Assembly: GCA_026414725.1 (NCBI GenBank)
Contig: JAOAIL010000004.1
Span: 43,857-81,635, forward strand
Direction of reading: 5' to 3'
Source: a bacterium
GTDB taxonomy: Bacteria > Ratteibacteria > UBA8468 > B48-G9 > JAFGKM01
Length of the DNA: 37,779 nucleotides
The notes under the pieces are model-generated. The model was not told the origin of the DNA, searched no databases, and saw nothing but the letters and a program-made list of their open reading frames with translations. Position numbers and translations under genes: made by a program. This document shows, piece by piece, positions 1 to 9,422 of this stretch. Every line of letters begins with the position of its first letter. Within the stretch, counting starts at the first letter, position 1.

Positions 1-625
1 AAAGTCCCGCAGTCCAGCCGGTGGCAGTCCCCTCCACATCTAACTTTCCATTAAGTTCCAGTGGCGGTACAGGCGGCATTACAGGGATAAGGTATTTCAT
101 ATTCAGTTTGCTGTTATATATATTGAGTCCGGCACCTGCAGATAAGGAAGGAGTAATTCTGTATGCAACTACAGGAGATATATTCATTGTATACATTGAT
201 GAGTAATAAGGGACTGAATACATCCAGTTTCTTACAGCGGACTTACTCCATTCAGTACTCTGTCCATAAGGGAATGTTATACCTAATCCGAATCGTAATG
301 GACTATTATTTCCGATGTCAGTTGAAAAAAATAGATAGGGTAGATAGGTAATAGATTCTTTCATATCTCCATCATAGGTAGTTGTTTTACATTCAGTTAC
401 AGGATAGAGTATAGCACTCCCGATTATGAATTGTTGTCCTTCTATCTGAATGAGTCCTGCAGGATTATGTGTAACTGCGGAAGCATCATCACACTGTGCA
501 ATAAAAGCACCTGCCTGTGAAAGTGCAGATGCCCCTTCAGGTGGATTTTTGAATGCCTGTGAAAATAGAGAAGAAGCAGTAAGAATTATAATACTGCAGA
601 AACAAACAATAGGTGTATTTTTCAT
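1..625 (-). CDS. FadL/OmpP1/TodX-family outer-membrane transport protein (5' part; runs off the left edge)
   Basis: The minus-strand reading frame opens at an ATG at 625-623 and stays open to position 1, giving 208 codons of a longer protein. A perfect Shine-Dalgarno (AAGGAGG, reading leftward from 637) sits five bases before the ATG. The first ~23 residues (MKNTPIVCFCSIIILTASSL...) look like a signal peptide. The mature start carries the family hallmark: AFKNPPEGASALSQAGAF, then DDASAVTHNPAGL. The Asn-Pro-Ala-Gly-Leu motif in the N-terminal plug region is typical of FadL/OmpP1/TodX channels for hydrophobic compounds. The following residues are rich in aromatic and alternating polar positions, as in a beta barrel. 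Family role (known): passive uptake of fatty acids or hydrocarbons across the outer membrane. The substrate here cannot be inferred. The gene is divergent from the radical SAM gene at 698. Confidence 0.85.
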   Translation of the reverse strand, partial: MKNTPIVCFCSIIILTASSLFSQAFKNPPEGASALSQAGAFIAQCDDASAVTHNPAGLIQIEGQQFIIGSAILYPVTECKTTTYDGDMKESITYLPYLFFSTDIGNNSPLRFGLGITFPYGQSTEWSKSAVRNWMYSVPYYSSMYTMNISPVVAYRITPSLSAGAGLNIYNSKLNMKYLIPVMPPVPPLELNGKLDVEGTATGWTAGL

Positions 626-697: not shown

Positions 698-2335
698 ATG
701 ACTGGAAACTTCTTGCTCATTTCAGTTGCAGGACTTCCCAAGATATTGTCTGATTTTATACCTGATATAGGGCTTGGAGTTCTTGCATCATCGCTTATCA
801 ACGAAGGATGGAGGGTGAAAATTCTTGATTTTAACCAGCCCTCACTATTTTCAGAGGTATTTACGGATGAAATAAGCAGTTTCCTTGAAAGATTTTCCCA
901 TAAGGTATTTATTGAAGGGAAAAGCCCTTCTTTAATAGATATAGCAAAACTCAAACTTATAGATAAACGGTTAGAAAAAAATAAAGAAGTTTTTTCTGAA
1001 AAACTGCAGGGTTATATTGAAAACTTTGTTGAGAAAGAAAAGATTGATTGTGTGGGATTTAAACTCTGGGCTGGTGATGGTTTCAGATGGTCGCTCAATG
1101 CAGGAGGATACCTTAAGAAGAAGCATCCTGAATTAAAAATTATAGGAGGTGGACCACAGGTTGATATATTTGGAGAGGAGATTTATAAGGTTGGAGGGTT
1201 TTTTGATGCACTATGTTATGGTGAAGGGGAAGAAACAATTATCCATCTTGCTGATTATGTAGCAGGAAAAAAGAGAAGAGAAGATATCCCTAATATCATA
1301 TTTCGTAAAGAAGAAACATTGATAAAAACACCCAGAAAATTTATAGAAGACCTTGATAATCTTCCTATTGCTGTATATACACCGGATGTCTATATCAATA
1401 TAAATGAAAAACTAAAAATACTGGTTCTGGATGAAAGCAGGGGATGTCCTAACAGTTGTTTTTTCTGTATACATCCTGTAAAAAGTGGCAGGAGGAGAAC
1501 AAAAAGTCCTGAAAAGGTGATTTATGAAATTAAGGAATACAGAAAGAGATATGGGGTGTCTACTTTTAAGTATGCTGGTTCAAGTACACCAGGTAGTTTT
1601 ATAATGGATGTTGCAAAAAAAATTCTTGAAGATAAGATTGAGGTTAAATACACAAGTTTTGGACATTTAAATGAATTTGAGGTGGACTTTTCTATATTAA
1701 AAAATTCTGGTTGTGAATCCATATTCTTTGGACTTGAATCAGCGGATGAGAAGATTTTGAAAGAGGGTATGAATAAAGAGATAAATATAGATAAGGCAAA
1801 GAAGGTTCTTATAGAATGTAAGAGAGCAGGGATATTTACTGTGGTAAGTGTAATCTACCCAGCACCATTTGAGACAAGAGAAAGCAGAAAGAAAACGATG
1901 GAATTTATAAAAGAGGTTAGCCCTGACTCTGTTCTTGTACAATTTGCAGGAGTATATCCACAGACAGTATGGTTTAAATATCCTGAAAGGTTTAACTTTA
2001 TAATAGAAGATAAGGAAACATACTCTTTAAAAACTATGACATATAAGATAAAAAATTTATTTCCCCCTACATACTGGGAACCATTGCCCTATAGAATAAA
2101 TGGTATGTCTTTTAAGGACTATGCGAGAGAAACATTTATTTTTCAGAAGGAACTTCAGGAAGAGGGTATTGAAACATCCATATCGGATGAGGCATATCTG
2201 ATTTATAAAGTCAGTGGGTTCTCCACCCTCAGGGACTTTTTGAATACCAATAGATATTATTTCTATTCAGGAAATAGAAAAAAACTTGAGGAAGAGATAA
2301 TTTCTGTTAATAGTAGAATCACAAGGAAAGAATAA
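698..2335 (+). CDS. B12-binding-type radical SAM protein
   Basis: The 545-residue protein has an N-terminal region of about 190 residues that resembles the cobalamin-binding Rossmann fold (GLGVLASSLINEGWRVKILD, later IIGGGPQVDIFGEE and CYGEGEETI). The DxHxxG cobalamin signature is not visible, so actual B12 binding is open. The radical SAM core follows, with cluster cysteines C250-x3-C254-x2-C257 (RGCPNSCFFC) ligating a [4Fe-4S] cluster that cleaves S-adenosylmethionine. The stop codon overlaps the next start by one base (TAATG), so it is co-translated with the ketosynthase at 2335. That pairing suggests, but does not show, a role in modifying a lipid or polyketide-like product. There is no Shine-Dalgarno before the ATG, and a -10-like TATAAT ends seven bases upstream. 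The substrate is unknown. Confidence 0.85.
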   Translation: MTGNFLLISVAGLPKILSDFIPDIGLGVLASSLINEGWRVKILDFNQPSLFSEVFTDEISSFLERFSHKVFIEGKSPSLIDIAKLKLIDKRLEKNKEVFSEKLQGYIENFVEKEKIDCVGFKLWAGDGFRWSLNAGGYLKKKHPELKIIGGGPQVDIFGEEIYKVGGFFDALCYGEGEETIIHLADYVAGKKRREDIPNIIFRKEETLIKTPRKFIEDLDNLPIAVYTPDVYININEKLKILVLDESRGCPNSCFFCIHPVKSGRRRTKSPEKVIYEIKEYRKRYGVSTFKYAGSSTPGSFIMDVAKKILEDKIEVKYTSFGHLNEFEVDFSILKNSGCESIFFGLESADEKILKEGMNKEINIDKAKKVLIECKRAGIFTVVSVIYPAPFETRESRKKTMEFIKEVSPDSVLVQFAGVYPQTVWFKYPERFNFIIEDKETYSLKTMTYKIKNLFPPTYWEPLPYRINGMSFKDYARETFIFQKELQEEGIETSISDEAYLIYKVSGFSTLRDFLNTNRYYFYSGNRKKLEEEIISVNSRITRKE

Positions 2336-3561
2336 TGGGTAAACGAAGAGTTGTAATAACGGGTATAGGTGTGATTGCTCCGAACGGAATTGGGAAGGAT
2401 GATTTCTGGTATGCATTAAAGACAGGAAGGTGTGGCATAAAAAATATAAGTTTTTTTGATACAACAGATTTTCCTGTAAAAATTGCTGGAGAAGTGAGGG
2501 GTTTTATTCCAGAGGAGTTTGTGGAAAAGAAAAAGGCGAGAAAGATGGCAAGGTTTTCCCAGTTTGCAGTTGCCTGTTCAAAAATGGCTCTGGAGGATGC
2601 AAAGATAATTTCTAAAAATTGTTCAGGGCGTAAAATTGGTATAGTTATGGGTGTTGCAAGTACGGATATAAGAACAGTAGAACATCAATGTAAAGGACTT
2701 TATTTAAAAGGTAAAGAGAGAGTCCAAGCATTTGCTTCTGCTGTTGGATTACCAAATGCACCAGCAGGTGCAATAGCGGAAGTTTGTGGTATCAATAATT
2801 GTAATCTTACTGTTTCTACAGGTTGTGCTGCAGGTCTTGATGCTTTAGGTGTAGCATATCAATTAATAAAAGAAGGGAGTATAAATATTGCTTTATCAGG
2901 AGGTTCTGATAGTCCTGTCACTCCTGTTATGCTTGCTTGTTTAGAAGCCGCTGGAATGGTTACAAAAAGTATGGATCCTGTTAAGGCAAGTCGTCCTTTT
3001 GATAGATATAGGGATGGAGGAGTCCTTTCTGAAGGGGCAGCAGTTGTTATTATGGAAGAGTTGGAGAGTGCTTTATCAAGAGGTGCTAATATCTATGGAG
3101 AAATTGTAGGGTATGGGCAGAGTATAGAAAGTAAGGAGGAGATGATGGGAGCAGGTCTAAAGAGAGCGATAGAAAAATGTTTTTCTGAGGCAGATATCAG
3201 TCCTGATAAGGTGAGTTACATTTCTGCTCATGGCCCTTCTGATAGGATTTTAGACCTTTGTGAGACAAACGTGTTAAAAGATGTATTTGGTTCTTACATA
3301 TACAGGATTCCTGTAAGTTCAATCAAAGGACATATAGGCAATCCTTATTCTGCAGCAGGTGTGATGCAGGTGATATCTGTGTTAATGGGTATGAAGGAGG
3401 ATGTTGTGGTTCCGACAATAAACTATGAATTTCCAGACCCTGATTGTGACCTTGACTATGTTCCTAACTATCCGAGACAGAATGAGATAAATATTGCTCT
3501 GGTTAATTCGCATGGACTAGGGGGTAGTAGTTCATCACTTTTAATAAGGAAAGTTATATGA
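2335..3561 (+). CDS. Beta-ketoacyl synthase (FabF/KAS II-like)
   Basis: This 408-residue thiolase-fold enzyme has the usual length for FabF. It begins RRVVITGIGVIAPNGIG, typical of KAS II. The Cys-His-His triad is present: C164 in STGCAAGLDA, H299 in SAHGPSD and H333 in IKGHIGNPYSAAG. It would therefore catalyse decarboxylative Claisen condensation of an acyl thioester with malonyl-ACP in the cytoplasm. Around both histidines it departs from housekeeping FabF: HGTST is replaced by HGPSD, and the GHLLGAAG region has a two-residue insertion (GHIGNPYSAAG). No acyl carrier protein, ketoreductase or other fab gene is nearby. It overlaps the upstream radical SAM gene by one base and the downstream kinase by four (ATGA). 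I favour a specialised ketosynthase over the general fatty-acid elongation enzyme, with moderate confidence. Confidence 0.85.
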   Translation: MGKRRVVITGIGVIAPNGIGKDDFWYALKTGRCGIKNISFFDTTDFPVKIAGEVRGFIPEEFVEKKKARKMARFSQFAVACSKMALEDAKIISKNCSGRKIGIVMGVASTDIRTVEHQCKGLYLKGKERVQAFASAVGLPNAPAGAIAEVCGINNCNLTVSTGCAAGLDALGVAYQLIKEGSINIALSGGSDSPVTPVMLACLEAAGMVTKSMDPVKASRPFDRYRDGGVLSEGAAVVIMEELESALSRGANIYGEIVGYGQSIESKEEMMGAGLKRAIEKCFSEADISPDKVSYISAHGPSDRILDLCETNVLKDVFGSYIYRIPVSSIKGHIGNPYSAAGVMQVISVLMGMKEDVVVPTINYEFPDPDCDLDYVPNYPRQNEINIALVNSHGLGGSSSSLLIRKVI

Positions 3562-6047
3562 GTGTTATAACAATAATTTTAATTTTTACTCTATTACTCA
3601 ATGCTATGATTATGTATCTTGTATATAAGAGCAATCCAAAAAGATTGCCAAATAAAACTTTTGTTTTAGCGTGTGCAAATGTATGGCTATGGATTGCTTG
3701 TTTTTTATTTATTGTTAATGCTTCTTCAGTAAAATCTATAGAATCATGGGTGAAAGTTGCTTTTGCTTTGGGTAGTTTTATCCCTTTTACTTTTTTGATT
3801 TTTGTTGATTCTATAGTTGGTAATAAGAAATTTAGAAGAAAAGAATATTTAATGGTTATGTTTTTTTCAATAGCCGAATTTTTTCTTTCTTTTTCACCAA
3901 ATCTTTTTACTGGTTTTAAAAAACCAGCAAGTCCAATGCAAATGATTCCTGAAGCTACATATGGATGGCCATATCTTTTATGGTATTCCTTATTTTTCCT
4001 TGCTATAATATTTGACTTTATTATTTTGTCAAGAAGTATGAAAAACGAAAAAGGACTTAAGAAGGCAGAATTGCAGTATATATTATTTGGATGGTTCTTT
4101 GCTGCGATTTTTATTGTCTTTTCTATGGTTATTTTCCCTATAATTTTTAAAACATCTTTTTTAGTCCAGTTTACTCCTATATCAGTATTAATAATGAATG
4201 GTTTTATTGGTTATGGGATAGCAAGATACAAGATAATGGATGTTTCTGTACTGATGCAAAAAGTCCTTTCTTATTCTTTCCTTATCCTTTCTATCTTCTT
4301 GCTTTATAATCTCTCTCTTTTCTCTTTAAGATGGTTTTTACTTCCTCGTCTTCCAGAAGCATCTATTCTGCCTGATACACTTGCACTTCTTCTTATTGTT
4401 TTTATCTTTGAACCTGCAAGAAAGAGAATAAGCAATTTTGTCAATTTTAAAATTTTTAACCTTGAATATTCACCAGAGGATATCCTTAGAGGATTGGAAA
4501 AGGTTCTTTATACAGTGGGAGATATAAGAATATTTCTTGAAAGGTGTTTGAAGGTAGTTCTTGAAAGCACAGGCATAAAAGAAGGGAAGATATTTTTTAT
4601 TCCTGTAGAAGGGCACAGTAAAAATTTTGTTATTTCTATATCTTTACAGGGACAAATCACATCTGATATAGATATATATCCTGAAAAAATTGAACAGGTG
4701 ATGAGGATAAAAGCAATTCCACTTATAAAGGGAGAACTGGAACGGAAAATTCCAGAAGAGACAACTACTGCCATTATAGAAGAGATGAGAGAAATAAATG
4801 CAGAGATAGTGCTGCCTCTTTTAAGTGATGATAAACTTTTAGGAATTTTGTGTTTTGGGGAGAAGGTTTCAGGTAAATTTTTTTCTCCTGAGGATGAAGA
4901 GGTTTTTTCTCGTCTATCATATTATCTCTCATTAAAAATGCAAAACTTTCTTTTCTATCAAGAGATTGAGAGAGAAAGGATATATCAGGAGACACTTCTT
5001 GAAAATCTCCCTATAGGAGTTATAGGGACAGATGCAAGTGGTTATATCAATATCGTAAATAGAGAGGCAGAAAATATTACAGGACTTAATAAAAAAGATA
5101 TTGAGAGAAGATATTTCAGTGAGGTACTACCAGAAGAGATAAGAAAAATTCTTACTTATTCTATACAGAATAAAAAAGATGTAAGGTATCTACACTTTAA
5201 AATGAAGAAAGAAGGCAGGGATATATCTTTAAATGCTAATGCTTCTTTATTCTATGATAAAGATGGAGGACTTTTAGGTGCACAGATAATATTTTCAGAT
5301 GTCACACACTTGGAAGAATTGGAAGAGGGGATAAAAAGGGCAGAACGACTTGCATCTTTAGGTGTTATGGCAACAGGTATTGCCCACGAGATTAAAAATC
5401 CACTTGTCTCTATAAAAACCTTTGCACAACTTCTTCAGGAGAAGTATAATGATAGTGATTTTCGGGAACAATTTTCTTCTCTTGCTATAAAGGAAGTGGA
5501 CAGGATAAATGCACTGGTAGAAGACATCCTGATGTTTGCAAAACCGAGAGGTATTGTATGGGTAGATGTTGATATAAAGGAGTTAATAAGAGCAACGAAG
5601 GTTCTGCTTACTCCACAGTTCCCCGACAAAAAGATTGAGATAAAAGAGGACCTTTGTGATGAACCGGTTGTTATAAAGGGAGATGCTGATAGACTCAAAC
5701 AGGCATTGCTCAATTTATGTATTAACAGTGCCCAGGCGATAGATAAAGAAGGAACTATAAATATCAAGGTTAGTAAAGGATATGAAATAGTAAGGATAGA
5801 AATAAAAGATGATGGTTGTGGAATAAAAGAAGATATATTGAGTAAAATATTTGAACCATTTTTTACAACAAAGACACAAGGGACAGGTCTTGGACTTTCA
5901 ATTGTAGCGAGGATAATAGATGAACATAACGGAAATATCAAGATAGAAAGTATGGAAGGAAAAGGAACGACAGTATGTATCACTTTACCTGTTAGACAGA
6001 AGGAGAATGAAGGGGATGAATTATTTGCTTCTTATAACAGAAAATAA
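3558..6047 (+). CDS. Membrane sensor histidine kinase (7TM-GAF-PAS-HisKA-HATPase)
   Basis: The 829-residue protein starts with about seven hydrophobic helices (residues ~1-265), like the histidine-kinase N-terminal 7TM input module. A GAF-like region (~300-470) and a PAS domain (~480-590) follow. The transmitter is intact: H-box ATGIAHEIKNPLVS with H610, N-box LNLCINSAQAI, G1 box DDGCGI, F-box FEPFFTTK and G2 box GTGLGLS. It should autophosphorylate on H610 in response to a membrane or cytoplasmic signal. The overall architecture recalls PrsK-type kinases. It overlaps the ketosynthase by four bases (ATGA) and the next kinase-like gene by about 41 bases. The nearest response regulator is the HD-GYP protein at 8013, and the receiver of the 6007 gene is another possible target. 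Confidence 0.9.
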   Translation: MSVITIILIFTLLLNAMIMYLVYKSNPKRLPNKTFVLACANVWLWIACFLFIVNASSVKSIESWVKVAFALGSFIPFTFLIFVDSIVGNKKFRRKEYLMVMFFSIAEFFLSFSPNLFTGFKKPASPMQMIPEATYGWPYLLWYSLFFLAIIFDFIILSRSMKNEKGLKKAELQYILFGWFFAAIFIVFSMVIFPIIFKTSFLVQFTPISVLIMNGFIGYGIARYKIMDVSVLMQKVLSYSFLILSIFLLYNLSLFSLRWFLLPRLPEASILPDTLALLLIVFIFEPARKRISNFVNFKIFNLEYSPEDILRGLEKVLYTVGDIRIFLERCLKVVLESTGIKEGKIFFIPVEGHSKNFVISISLQGQITSDIDIYPEKIEQVMRIKAIPLIKGELERKIPEETTTAIIEEMREINAEIVLPLLSDDKLLGILCFGEKVSGKFFSPEDEEVFSRLSYYLSLKMQNFLFYQEIERERIYQETLLENLPIGVIGTDASGYINIVNREAENITGLNKKDIERRYFSEVLPEEIRKILTYSIQNKKDVRYLHFKMKKEGRDISLNANASLFYDKDGGLLGAQIIFSDVTHLEELEEGIKRAERLASLGVMATGIAHEIKNPLVSIKTFAQLLQEKYNDSDFREQFSSLAIKEVDRINALVEDILMFAKPRGIVWVDVDIKELIRATKVLLTPQFPDKKIEIKEDLCDEPVVIKGDADRLKQALLNLCINSAQAIDKEGTINIKVSKGYEIVRIEIKDDGCGIKEDILSKIFEPFFTTKTQGTGLGLSIVARIIDEHNGNIKIESMEGKGTTVCITLPVRQKENEGDELFASYNRK

Positions 6048-7968
6048 AACAATAGCAGTATCTCTGAAAGCGATATTTAAAGGGGATTATTTTATAGAGG
6101 ATATTACACCAGAGTATGCATTAAAGGTTATATCAGAAAGAAGACCATGTATTATTCTACTTGATTCTCAGTTTAACAAGGTAAACTCTCTGGAACTCCT
6201 TACGGAATTACTTTCCTATGACCCTACACTTACAATAGTGAAACTCGTTCCGTCTTTCGATAAAGTTGCTAAACAATCTCTTGAATTAGGTGCTTTTGAA
6301 GTATTAGAAAAGCCATTTGATACCGAGAGGATAAAACACATCATAAAAAGGGCAATGGAAAGAGAAAGGTTTATAGAAGCAAAGGAAAAGGATATAAAAA
6401 GAAAAGAAAAACGAGAACAACTGAAAGAAGAGATGTCTTCTGAACCGGAAAGAGAGACATTCTTTCAGTCGTTTCTGGAGATAGTGGCTGAGAATTTCTC
6501 GGATATTGACAGGACAGGTTTAGAGGTACTTAAAATAATAAAAAAGAGATTTCAGATTAGCAGAATGCTTATTCTTCTAAAGAAAGGAACATCTTTTGTT
6601 CCATCAGTGTCTCTCGGAATGGGAGATGTTTTTACAGGGTTAGAACTCAAACAGAACCATCCATTTATACTCTGGTTTCTCAATAAAAATCGTATTCTCA
6701 ATTTTGAATCTGAAAACGAGATACCTTTTGAGTGTAAGAGTTTTATGAATACCATTAACTGCCGGTTTGCTTTTCCATTAAAGACATTGAAGGGAGAACT
6801 TATAGGTGTCTTTTTTGCTGGAGATAAAGTAACCGGAGATGAAGTAACTTCTAAAGATATAAGCTCTTTAAGTATGATAATGGATTATCTGAGCACGGTT
6901 TTTGAAAATGCCTTTTTATATAAAGAGATATGTTTCCGTAAGGAATATCAGGAAGCGATATTTTATAACATTCCCACAGGTATTATTGCTGTTGATAAAA
7001 AGGGAAAGATAGTTGTGTTTAACCCATACGCAGAGGAGATTTTCAGGATAAAATTTGAAGAGGTGAAGAACGAACCGATAGAAAAAGTTGGTTCTCAGAT
7101 AGCGGACTTTATAAGAAGGGCATTGAATACAGGGGAGACGTTTAACAGGGTGGAGATTGAATATATACCTACAAGGGTTATATTAGGATTAAGTATAAAC
7201 ATTCTGAAAGAAGCAGATGGAGGTGTCAACGGAGCGGTTGCCATATTCCAAAATCTTACTGTTATTAAGGAGATGGAAAAGAAGGAGAGAGAAGCAGAGA
7301 GAGATAGATACTGGAGTTTGCTCGCTTCACGGTTATCCCATGAACTTAAAAATCCACTTGTTGCAATCAAGACATTCGCTCAGATGTTACCTGCAAAATA
7401 TGATGATGAGGAATTCAGAATTAAGTTTTCAGAAGTAGTGCAAACTGAGGTCCAAAGGATAAATGAAATAATAGAAAGGATAAATAAGATAGCAGATAAG
7501 ATGGAACTCAAAACAGTTTCTGTGGATGTTGTAGAACTTTTTAAGAAATGTGTGGATGAGATGAAAAGAAAGGATGGTATAAGATTCAGTTTTTCCGGTG
7601 ATGAGAAGGTTTTTATTCCGGCAGATGAGGATAAAATAAAAGAAGCAGTGAATTATATTATGGATTTTATATATGATGATACAGGGGGAGATGGGGCTGT
7701 ATTTATTAACTTTAAGAAAGATGGGGAAAATATAGAGATAGATATAATAGAAAAGGGTGGTAAAATAAATCTACAGAATGGAGATGAAATTTTTCTTCCT
7801 TTCAGTCCCTCGGTAAGAAGTAATGTTTCAATAGGCATTATGCTTTCAAGAAAGATATTTGAATCCCATGGTGGATGTTTTAGATGTAACCTGCATCCTG
7901 CAGGAAAGAATTTTATAATTACCCTTCCCATTAATATTCCTGCAAGAGAGAGGAATTTGGTTCTATAA
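6007..7968 (+). CDS. Receiver-GAF-PAS-histidine kinase-like protein with degenerate ATP-binding domain
   Basis: Domain order in 653 residues: receiver-like (1-115, D53 in ILLDSQF, K102 in LEKPFD, but the usual acidic pair replaced by ITEN), GAF-like (~150-300), PAS (~310-420), HisKA (~435-500) and a catalytic-domain remnant (~500-645). The H-box LSHELKNPLVAIKTFAQ is intact with H445. It is closely similar to the H-box of the neighbouring 829-residue kinase. In the ATPase part, the conserved N-box Asn aligns with a Phe (EAVNYIMDFIYDD), the DxGxG box reads EKGGK, and the glycine-rich G2 box reads SNVSIGIMLS. It is therefore probably not an active kinase, but could be phosphorylated in trans or act as a heterodimer partner. 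An ATG at 6016 may be the true start, because the AAGGAG at 6000-6005 is only one base from the first ATG. Confidence 0.8.
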   Translation: MKGMNYLLLITENKTIAVSLKAIFKGDYFIEDITPEYALKVISERRPCIILLDSQFNKVNSLELLTELLSYDPTLTIVKLVPSFDKVAKQSLELGAFEVLEKPFDTERIKHIIKRAMERERFIEAKEKDIKRKEKREQLKEEMSSEPERETFFQSFLEIVAENFSDIDRTGLEVLKIIKKRFQISRMLILLKKGTSFVPSVSLGMGDVFTGLELKQNHPFILWFLNKNRILNFESENEIPFECKSFMNTINCRFAFPLKTLKGELIGVFFAGDKVTGDEVTSKDISSLSMIMDYLSTVFENAFLYKEICFRKEYQEAIFYNIPTGIIAVDKKGKIVVFNPYAEEIFRIKFEEVKNEPIEKVGSQIADFIRRALNTGETFNRVEIEYIPTRVILGLSINILKEADGGVNGAVAIFQNLTVIKEMEKKEREAERDRYWSLLASRLSHELKNPLVAIKTFAQMLPAKYDDEEFRIKFSEVVQTEVQRINEIIERINKIADKMELKTVSVDVVELFKKCVDEMKRKDGIRFSFSGDEKVFIPADEDKIKEAVNYIMDFIYDDTGGDGAVFINFKKDGENIEIDIIEKGGKINLQNGDEIFLPFSPSVRSNVSIGIMLSRKIFESHGGCFRCNLHPAGKNFIITLPINIPARERNLVL

Positions 7969-8012
7969 GTATAAAGGTGTATAATAATTTTGTGAAAAAA
8001 CAGGAAGACGAA

Positions 8013-9422
8013 ATGGATAAAAAGAAGGTACTTATAGTTGATGATGAACCAGAAATAGGACATCTCTGTAGGGAGTTTTTAGAAGGAGAAGGATATGCGA
8101 TTTCTTTCTATCAGGGGATAAGTGAAGCGTTGAGGCAATTAGAAAATGAAAGATTTGATGTTATATTACTTGATATCCAGATGCCAGAGATGGATGGTTT
8201 TACAGCCATTGATAAAATAAGGGAAAAAAATATACCTGTGATTATAATCACCGCTTTTGGAACGGTTGAGAATGCAGTAAGAGCATTGAGGTCTGGTGCT
8301 TCTGATTTTCTTGTAAAGCCATTTTCTCTTGAAGAACTTTCCTATGCTATTAAGAGAAATATTGAGAAGAATGATGGTGAATTGGAAATTTTTAGGTTGA
8401 AGATGATAAAAACGATATTAGAATTAAATCGTATAATTGTTTCTCTAACAGAACTTGATTTACTGCTTGATAAAATCATCAATATTGTTAACAATATATA
8501 TCAACCCGAACTCGCTGCTATATATATTGCTGGAGAGGAAGGGGAAAACTTTATTTTAAGGAAATATATTCCTGTGAAGAAGAAATTTCCTGAACAACTT
8601 TCTATAAGTTATAGATATGACCAAGTTAGAGATATTTTTAGTGAAAAGAAGGTAAGGATTGAGAAAGAAAAAAATTACATGATAACAATTCCTTTTACAG
8701 GAACAAAAAAAGAGATAGGATTTATGTATATAGAAATTCCAGCAACAAAAGAGATATCAGAAGAAGAAGTGAAATTTTTAGAGATTTTTGCACTCCAGGT
8801 CGGTATAGGTATAGAAAATGCCATCCTGTTTGATATGGTAAGAAATTCTTATATTAATTCTATAAAATCACTGGTTAATTCTCTTGAGGCAAAGGATGCA
8901 TATACAAAAGGACATTCAGAACAGGTTGCTTACTATTCATTGCTTATAGGAAAGCAGATGGGACTCAGCAACCATAATCTTGAAATATTAAAAAATGCTT
9001 CTTATCTACATGACCTTGGGAAATTAGGAATAAAGGACTCTATCCTTCTTAAACCCGGACCACTGAATGAAGAAGAACGTGATATTATAAAACAGCATCC
9101 ATCAATGACTGTCAAAATTTTAGAGCCACTCGGTCTTAAAAAAGAGGAGATTTCAGCATGTTTTCACCATCATGAAAAAGTTAACGGGAATGGTTATCCT
9201 GAGGGGTTGCAGGGAGAAGAAATTCCTTTACTTGCCAGAATTATTGCTGTAGCGGATGCTTATAGTGCTATGGTTTCTGAAAGACCTTACAGGAAGGCAA
9301 TGACAGAAGAAGAGGCAATTGCTGAATTGAGACGATATGTGGATATTCAGTTTGATAGAGATGTTGTAGAGACCTTCATCAAAATACTTAAAGAGGAGGT
9401 GAAGGGAGATGAAAGAGATTGA
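8013..9422 (+). CDS. Response regulator with HD-GYP domain (c-di-GMP phosphodiesterase type)
   Basis: I choose the ATG at 8013: AGGAAG at 8002-8007 precedes it with ideal spacing, and the protein then begins MDKKKVLIVDDEPEIG, the canonical receiver start. An in-frame GTG at 7977 would add 12 residues. The receiver (1-120) has the acidic pair, the phospho-acceptor D54 in LLDIQMPEMDG and the switch lysine in VKPFS. A GAF-like segment (~150-280) leads into an HD-GYP domain with H333-D334 (LHDLGKLG), a later histidine cluster CFHHHEK, and G394-Y395-P396 (GNGYPEGL). The family hydrolyses cyclic di-GMP to GMP or pGpG using a binuclear metal centre. Phosphorylation at D54 by the upstream kinase pair would couple the signal to c-di-GMP level. 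The next gene overlaps its 3' end by 14 bases. Confidence 0.9.
   Translation: MDKKKVLIVDDEPEIGHLCREFLEGEGYAISFYQGISEALRQLENERFDVILLDIQMPEMDGFTAIDKIREKNIPVIIITAFGTVENAVRALRSGASDFLVKPFSLEELSYAIKRNIEKNDGELEIFRLKMIKTILELNRIIVSLTELDLLLDKIINIVNNIYQPELAAIYIAGEEGENFILRKYIPVKKKFPEQLSISYRYDQVRDIFSEKKVRIEKEKNYMITIPFTGTKKEIGFMYIEIPATKEISEEEVKFLEIFALQVGIGIENAILFDMVRNSYINSIKSLVNSLEAKDAYTKGHSEQVAYYSLLIGKQMGLSNHNLEILKNASYLHDLGKLGIKDSILLKPGPLNEEERDIIKQHPSMTVKILEPLGLKKEEISACFHHHEKVNGNGYPEGLQGEEIPLLARIIAVADAYSAMVSERPYRKAMTEEEAIAELRRYVDIQFDRDVVETFIKILKEEVKGDERD

Follow-up and report, generated by a model that had tools for sequence, protein, structure and literature searches.

The HK2 gene, which lies in the stretch of 37,779 nucleotides analysed here (contig JAOAIL010000004.1, hereafter the window), encodes a pseudo-histidine-kinase that has kept its phospho-accepting histidine and lost its ATP-site motifs, as confirmed by motif reading and orthologue alignment. 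It stands beside HK1, a paralogous kinase with intact motifs. Tentatively, and at somewhat less than an even chance, we read HK2 as part of a two-kinase sensor, in which it would be a non-autonomous phospho-carrier, phosphorylated by HK1 and feeding a response regulator. Annotating such HK2 genes as active kinases would be a misreading for a whole order of uncultured bacteria.

Table 1. Genes, domains and motifs of the locus, in window coordinates.
Feature	Position	Strand	Remarks
FadL/TodX-like outer-membrane transporter gene (start only)	1..625	-	divergent; runs off the window
B12-binding radical SAM protein	698..2335	+	opens the cluster in the order to which the window belongs
FabF-like beta-ketoacyl-ACP synthase	2335..3561	+	precedes HK1 in almost all related loci whose flank is long enough
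HK1, intact HisKA_7TM-GAF-PAS-HisKA-HATPase kinase	3558..6047	+	His610 at 5385-5387; overlaps HK2 start
HK2, REC-GAF-PAS-HisKA-degenerate HATPase pseudo-histidine-kinase	6007..7968	+	653 aa; translated probably from the ATG at 6016
HK2 receiver domain	6007..6360	+	Asp53 at 6163-6165; Lys102 at 6310-6312
HK2 GAF-like domain	6502..6906	+	residues about 166-300; alignment to HK1 and predicted fold
HK2 PAS domain	6940..7266	+	residues about 312-420; Pfam
HK2 HisKA/DHp domain	7294..7497	+	phospho-acceptor His445 at 7339-7341; ExxN motif retained
HK2 degenerate HATPase (CA) domain	7516..7941	+	
HK2 N-box, Asn replaced by Phe554	7666..7668	+	Phe in 20/20 same-order orthologues
HK2 DxGxG replaced by EKGGK	7750..7764	+	residues 582-586
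HK2 G2 box replaced by SNVSIGIML	7819..7845	+	residues 605-613
REC-GAF-HD-GYP response regulator	7977..9422	+	probable start ATG at 8013

The 5' end of HK2 overlaps the 3' end of HK1, and since the aligned homologues begin at M4, translation probably starts at the internal ATG (Table 1). Pfam recognised Response_reg at residues 35-113, PAS at about 315-418 and HisKA at 438-493 (E 4e-10), while the HATPase_c match was weak (28.8 bits at 540-642, against 100 bits in HK1); none of the NCBIfam models listed reached its cut-off with HK1, with HK2 or with the HD-GYP protein. Between the receiver and the PAS domain Pfam alone makes no call, and the GAF-like domain placed there was absent from the preliminary description. 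Like a canonical HisKA kinase, HK2 has the H-box histidine (SHELKNPLV, invariant in the clade), and its H-box, SHELKNPLVAIKTFAQ with an intact His445, is nearly the same as AHEIKNPLVSIKTFAQ of HK1. The N, G1 and G2 boxes of a canonical kinase are missing, and Phe554, EKGGK and SNVSIGIML were found exactly as the preliminary description had reported them. Judging from these motifs, we infer that productive ATP use by HK2 would be impossible.

An altered acidic pocket had also been proposed for the front receiver, and this holds in part: the domain begins with TEN in place of DD, its acidic pair is reduced to one acid and the Thr/Ser switch is gone, but the damage is smaller than supposed, the phospho-acceptor Asp53 and Lys102 being invariant within the clade. 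The structure prediction proposed at that stage gave an AlphaFold2 model of the 653-residue protein with a mean pLDDT of 87.9 and a predicted CA fold, in which ten-residue blocks scored about 81-95, the last blocks lower. Foldseek searches of the PDB with this model matched ordinary histidine kinases and phytochromes, and the closest solved relatives of the receiver include Spo0F.

The loss of the ATP site is a property of the order. All three motifs were lost and the histidine retained in 20/20 same-order orthologues covering the region, which rules out a sequencing error or the local lesion that orthologue alignment was meant to detect. In a second sampling the H-box was retained in 18/18 clade members and was the most conserved 12-residue stretch of HK2. 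The tree places a single CA loss at the clade base (SH-aLRT 96), and HK2 ORFs are nearly all full length across the clade. Mean entropy over the 18 members was 1.02 in the HK2 DHp domain versus 1.95 in its CA domain, the HK1 CA domain of the same genomes having 1.43; between the two closest genomes, dN/dS was 0.06 in the HK2 DHp and 0.27 in the degenerate CA domain, and the HK1 CA gave 0.16. Both measures therefore indicate a CA domain that is relaxed yet constrained, with purifying selection continuing to act on the region.

HK1 is immediately upstream of HK2 in 84 of the 87 loci examined, the other three likely reflecting contig ends, and its H, N, G1 and G2 motifs are present wherever the region was covered, with the exception of a weakened G1 in locus L025. 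The intact paralogue already described beside the pseudokinase of the window is a recurrent neighbour of HK2. The two proteins are homologous from the GAF domain to the C-terminal end (30% identity, E 8e-45); by domain, DHp is the most alike, at 43-51% versus 20-27% in GAF, PAS and CA. Both kinases have 28 residues between the PAS DxT motif and the histidine in 80/81 measurable pairs, and the GAF-to-PAS spacing is 19/19 in 77/78. This equal spacing permits a parallel mixed dimer and, being the same everywhere, is permissive only, with no covariation to be read from it. We also compared DHp similarity within genomes (0.489) and between genomes (0.470); there was no real excess, and same-genome similarity was dropped as evidence of co-evolution.

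A scan of named genomes gave 80 loci from Omnitrophota-labelled MAGs (the group of the window, probably equivalent to GTDB Ratteibacteria), Verrucomicrobiota, Kiritimatiellota and Lentisphaerota; it used H-box patterns, one of them containing the histidine, and was thus biased against further His-lost HK2s. In a tree from an alignment that left out the CA domain and the His column, HK1 and HK2 formed separate groups (support 99 each), both spanning phyla. The origin by duplication that had been suspected is thus upheld, and judged from this tree the duplication is ancient, older than several phyla; a recent duplication of HK1 is ruled out. HK2 is intact in the Verrucomicrobiota, Kiritimatiellota and Lentisphaerota (PVC) loci, apart from four cut or frame-broken copies (L105, L110, L113, L116) and one with an altered G1 (L087), and also in the same-class relatives L021 and L024, which indicates that HK2 was formerly a complete kinase. 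The L021 protein carries an extra C-terminal stretch of ~90 residues that by eye looks like a Fis-type DNA-binding region. The receivers of the PVC HK2s, unlike those of the window's clade, look like pseudo-receivers, with the conserved Lys gone and the region after the Asp shortened.

In two further phyla the mirror change was found, with the HK2 histidine replaced by Gln and the ATP site intact (L022 and L118; L023). Relatives of these proteins keep the histidine (L119, L120, L121; L136), and the tree needs three separate events, in what is a small sample of His-lost lineages. An exact-pattern search that counted only His-to-Gln H-boxes, in 388 genomes of Pontiella's phylum, returned none, a result that says little. 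The partly decayed CA domain of the L025 HK2 is a further, separate event on the tree. In its genus (G049; L025, L150-L152), HK2 has partly decayed G1 and G2 with His and Asn kept, as read only in L025; this may be another CA loss, independent of the first and still under way.

The order ketosynthase-HK1-HK2 recurs in PVC phyla, Omnitrophota-labelled MAGs and other phyla, and many of these loci include divergently transcribed genes for a FadL/TodX-like channel and a REC-HisKA-HATPase kinase; in the window's genome this kinase gene lies beyond the FadL/TodX-like gene, just outside the window. Gene content suggests a lipid or hydrophobic-compound theme for the locus. In six loci of Kiritimatiellales type this third, divergent kinase has its H-box His replaced by Arg (LVRDLRNPLT) and keeps the N, G1 and G2 boxes intact, whereas the REC-kinase of L100 keeps the H-box His. 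On the other side, the REC-GAF-HD-GYP regulator, likely the cognate output, is followed by mreB and apparent rod-shape genes. Most families of the order have an NtrC-type regulator between HK2 and the HD-GYP gene, which is absent there from the window (7968-7977) and its nearest relatives; a search of the window's own genome with one NtrC-type protein gave receiver matches and no convincing sigma-54 activator. Scans for sigma-70 promoters and terminators did no better on the window than on shuffles, and a literature search on the ketosynthase-HK1-HK2 locus found no report.

The homodimer is the usual picture of a histidine kinase; to our knowledge, few mixed kinase dimers have been described, conserved ones being rarer still. 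We propose that HK1 and HK2 would form a parallel mixed dimer, with their GAF, PAS and DHp helices side by side, inside which the ATPase domain of HK1 would phosphorylate His445 of HK2. In the window's genus the phosphate would pass from His445 to the adjacent REC-GAF-HD-GYP protein; elsewhere in the order, the NtrC-type regulator would probably be a second recipient in most families. HK1 would supply the membrane (7TM) input, while the N-terminal receiver and the GAF and PAS domains of HK2 would serve as inputs tuning the dimer. Loss of either the CA function or the histidine leaves an HK2 homodimer dead as a kinase, but of the two trans reactions possible with HK1 each loss spares one: where the CA is lost, the HK1 CA could still phosphorylate the HK2 histidine, and where the histidine is lost, the HK2 CA could still phosphorylate that of HK1. 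Both losses therefore fit an HK2 working with HK1, and the comparative evidence favours such coupling. Against the phospho-carrier reading, HK2 cannot carry phosphate on this residue in the His-lost lineages, so that carriage by the histidine would not be universal to the locus.

HK2 might instead act as an allosteric or phosphatase partner, controlling HK1 or dephosphorylating the regulator with its own histidine unphosphorylated, in which case His445 and the ExxN motif would be kept for binding or dephosphorylating the regulator's receiver. We consider this unlikely, although it has precedents: the transmitter core of Caulobacter DivL serves to sense phosphorylated DivK (PMC4211667), RetS of Pseudomonas aeruginosa inhibits GacS within a heterodimer (PMC12189002), and, by analogy, the DivL and ChrS pseudokinases count against the phospho-carrier reading by acting without using the phospho-accepting residue. 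The ExxN residues beside His445 (E446 and N449) are invariant in the clade, and the histidine was dispensable in three other lineages. It is nevertheless the same in all of the 18-20 clade members compared, across a long tree; in DivL it has been replaced.

A fused relay of the Spo0F/Spo0B kind, in which an HK1 homodimer would phosphorylate Asp53 of HK2 and the phosphate would move on to His445 and the response regulator, the degenerate CA serving as scaffold, appears improbable to us. It would account for Asp53 and Lys102 being invariant in the CA-lost clade and for the Lys being gone from PVC receivers, whose HK2s keep the ATP site; the invariant H-box and the resemblance of the receiver to Spo0F also agree with it. 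No Hpt domain was matched in the genome (controls were positive in 8/14 genomes), which is in line with such a relay as well as with the mixed dimer, and led us to set aside an Hpt-mediated relay. The receiver, however, is without one metal-binding acid and the Thr/Ser switch, and the scheme is impossible in His-lost lineages, which would confine it to the present order.

Non-standard ATP binding by the degenerate CA, allowing weak autophosphorylation, is very unlikely: most orthologues have the acidic Glu for Asp at G1, and the PF of the F-box and the G1 glycine (584) are largely kept, but three separate motifs are gone together in every same-order orthologue covering them. We give hardly any credence to ordinary decay, with HK2 a dying kinase, its CA irrelevant and erosion of the H-box still to come, because its elevated CA dN/dS is set against a loss dating to the clade base, nearly always full-length ORFs, a uniform Phe in the N-box and a CA fold predicted with high confidence.

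More broadly, the pair may represent a widespread obligate mixed-dimer sensor, linked to a locus of lipid type with its FabF-like synthase and FadL-like channel, whose second kinase repeatedly lost its ATP site or its histidine across phyla, a generalisation that we hold as possible and rather doubtful. If true, it would provide a natural series of complementary half-kinases directly showing division of labour in kinase dimers. One ancient pair in any case offers three natural HK2 states, complete, without ATP site and without histidine, which make the sharing of catalysis between kinase partners directly testable, and an intact homologue occurs in the cultured species Pontiella sulfatireligans.

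Among known systems, HK2 belongs to an established type, the histidine pseudokinase with an active partner, and the mechanism proposed for it is a reasoned inference. In Bacillus, Spo0F and Spo0B are separate proteins, respectively a receiver and a DHp phosphotransferase with a degenerate ATPase-like domain. HK2 combines the same parts, a DHp histidine next to a degenerate ATPase-like domain included, but has them fused with GAF and PAS domains, and its receiver is atypical. The RetS and GacS genes are not known to form an adjacent conserved pair. RetS/GacS resembles HK1/HK2 in the control of one output by mixed kinases, and differs in that both proteins also form homodimers and RetS is inhibitory (PMC12189002). 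In the CA-frameshift pseudokinase ChrS of Corynebacterium glutamicum, as may be the case for HK2, loss of CA function alters signalling via a paralogous kinase, although that mutation was laboratory-evolved and its histidine is unneeded (PMC9491836). DivL is likewise a pseudo-histidine-kinase, without kinase activity, acting with another kinase (PMC4211667). Its histidine is replaced by Tyr, however, whereas HK2 keeps His445 and has lost the ATP motifs instead. In FasB/FasC/FasA of group A Streptococcus, two kinase genes and a regulator share one locus, two-hybrid assays detected the FasB-FasC interaction and no homodimers, the kinase domain of FasC is dispensable, and His246 of this proposed pseudokinase is the likely residue phosphorylated by its partner (PMC12675982). 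HK2 similarly has a conserved histidine, a kinase domain predicted to be non-functional and an adjacent paralogous kinase with intact motifs; unlike FasB/FasC, it has another architecture, with receiver, GAF and PAS domains, and its ATP motifs are gone throughout an entire order. FasB/FasC is the experimental precedent for the proposed phosphorylation of HK2 by HK1.
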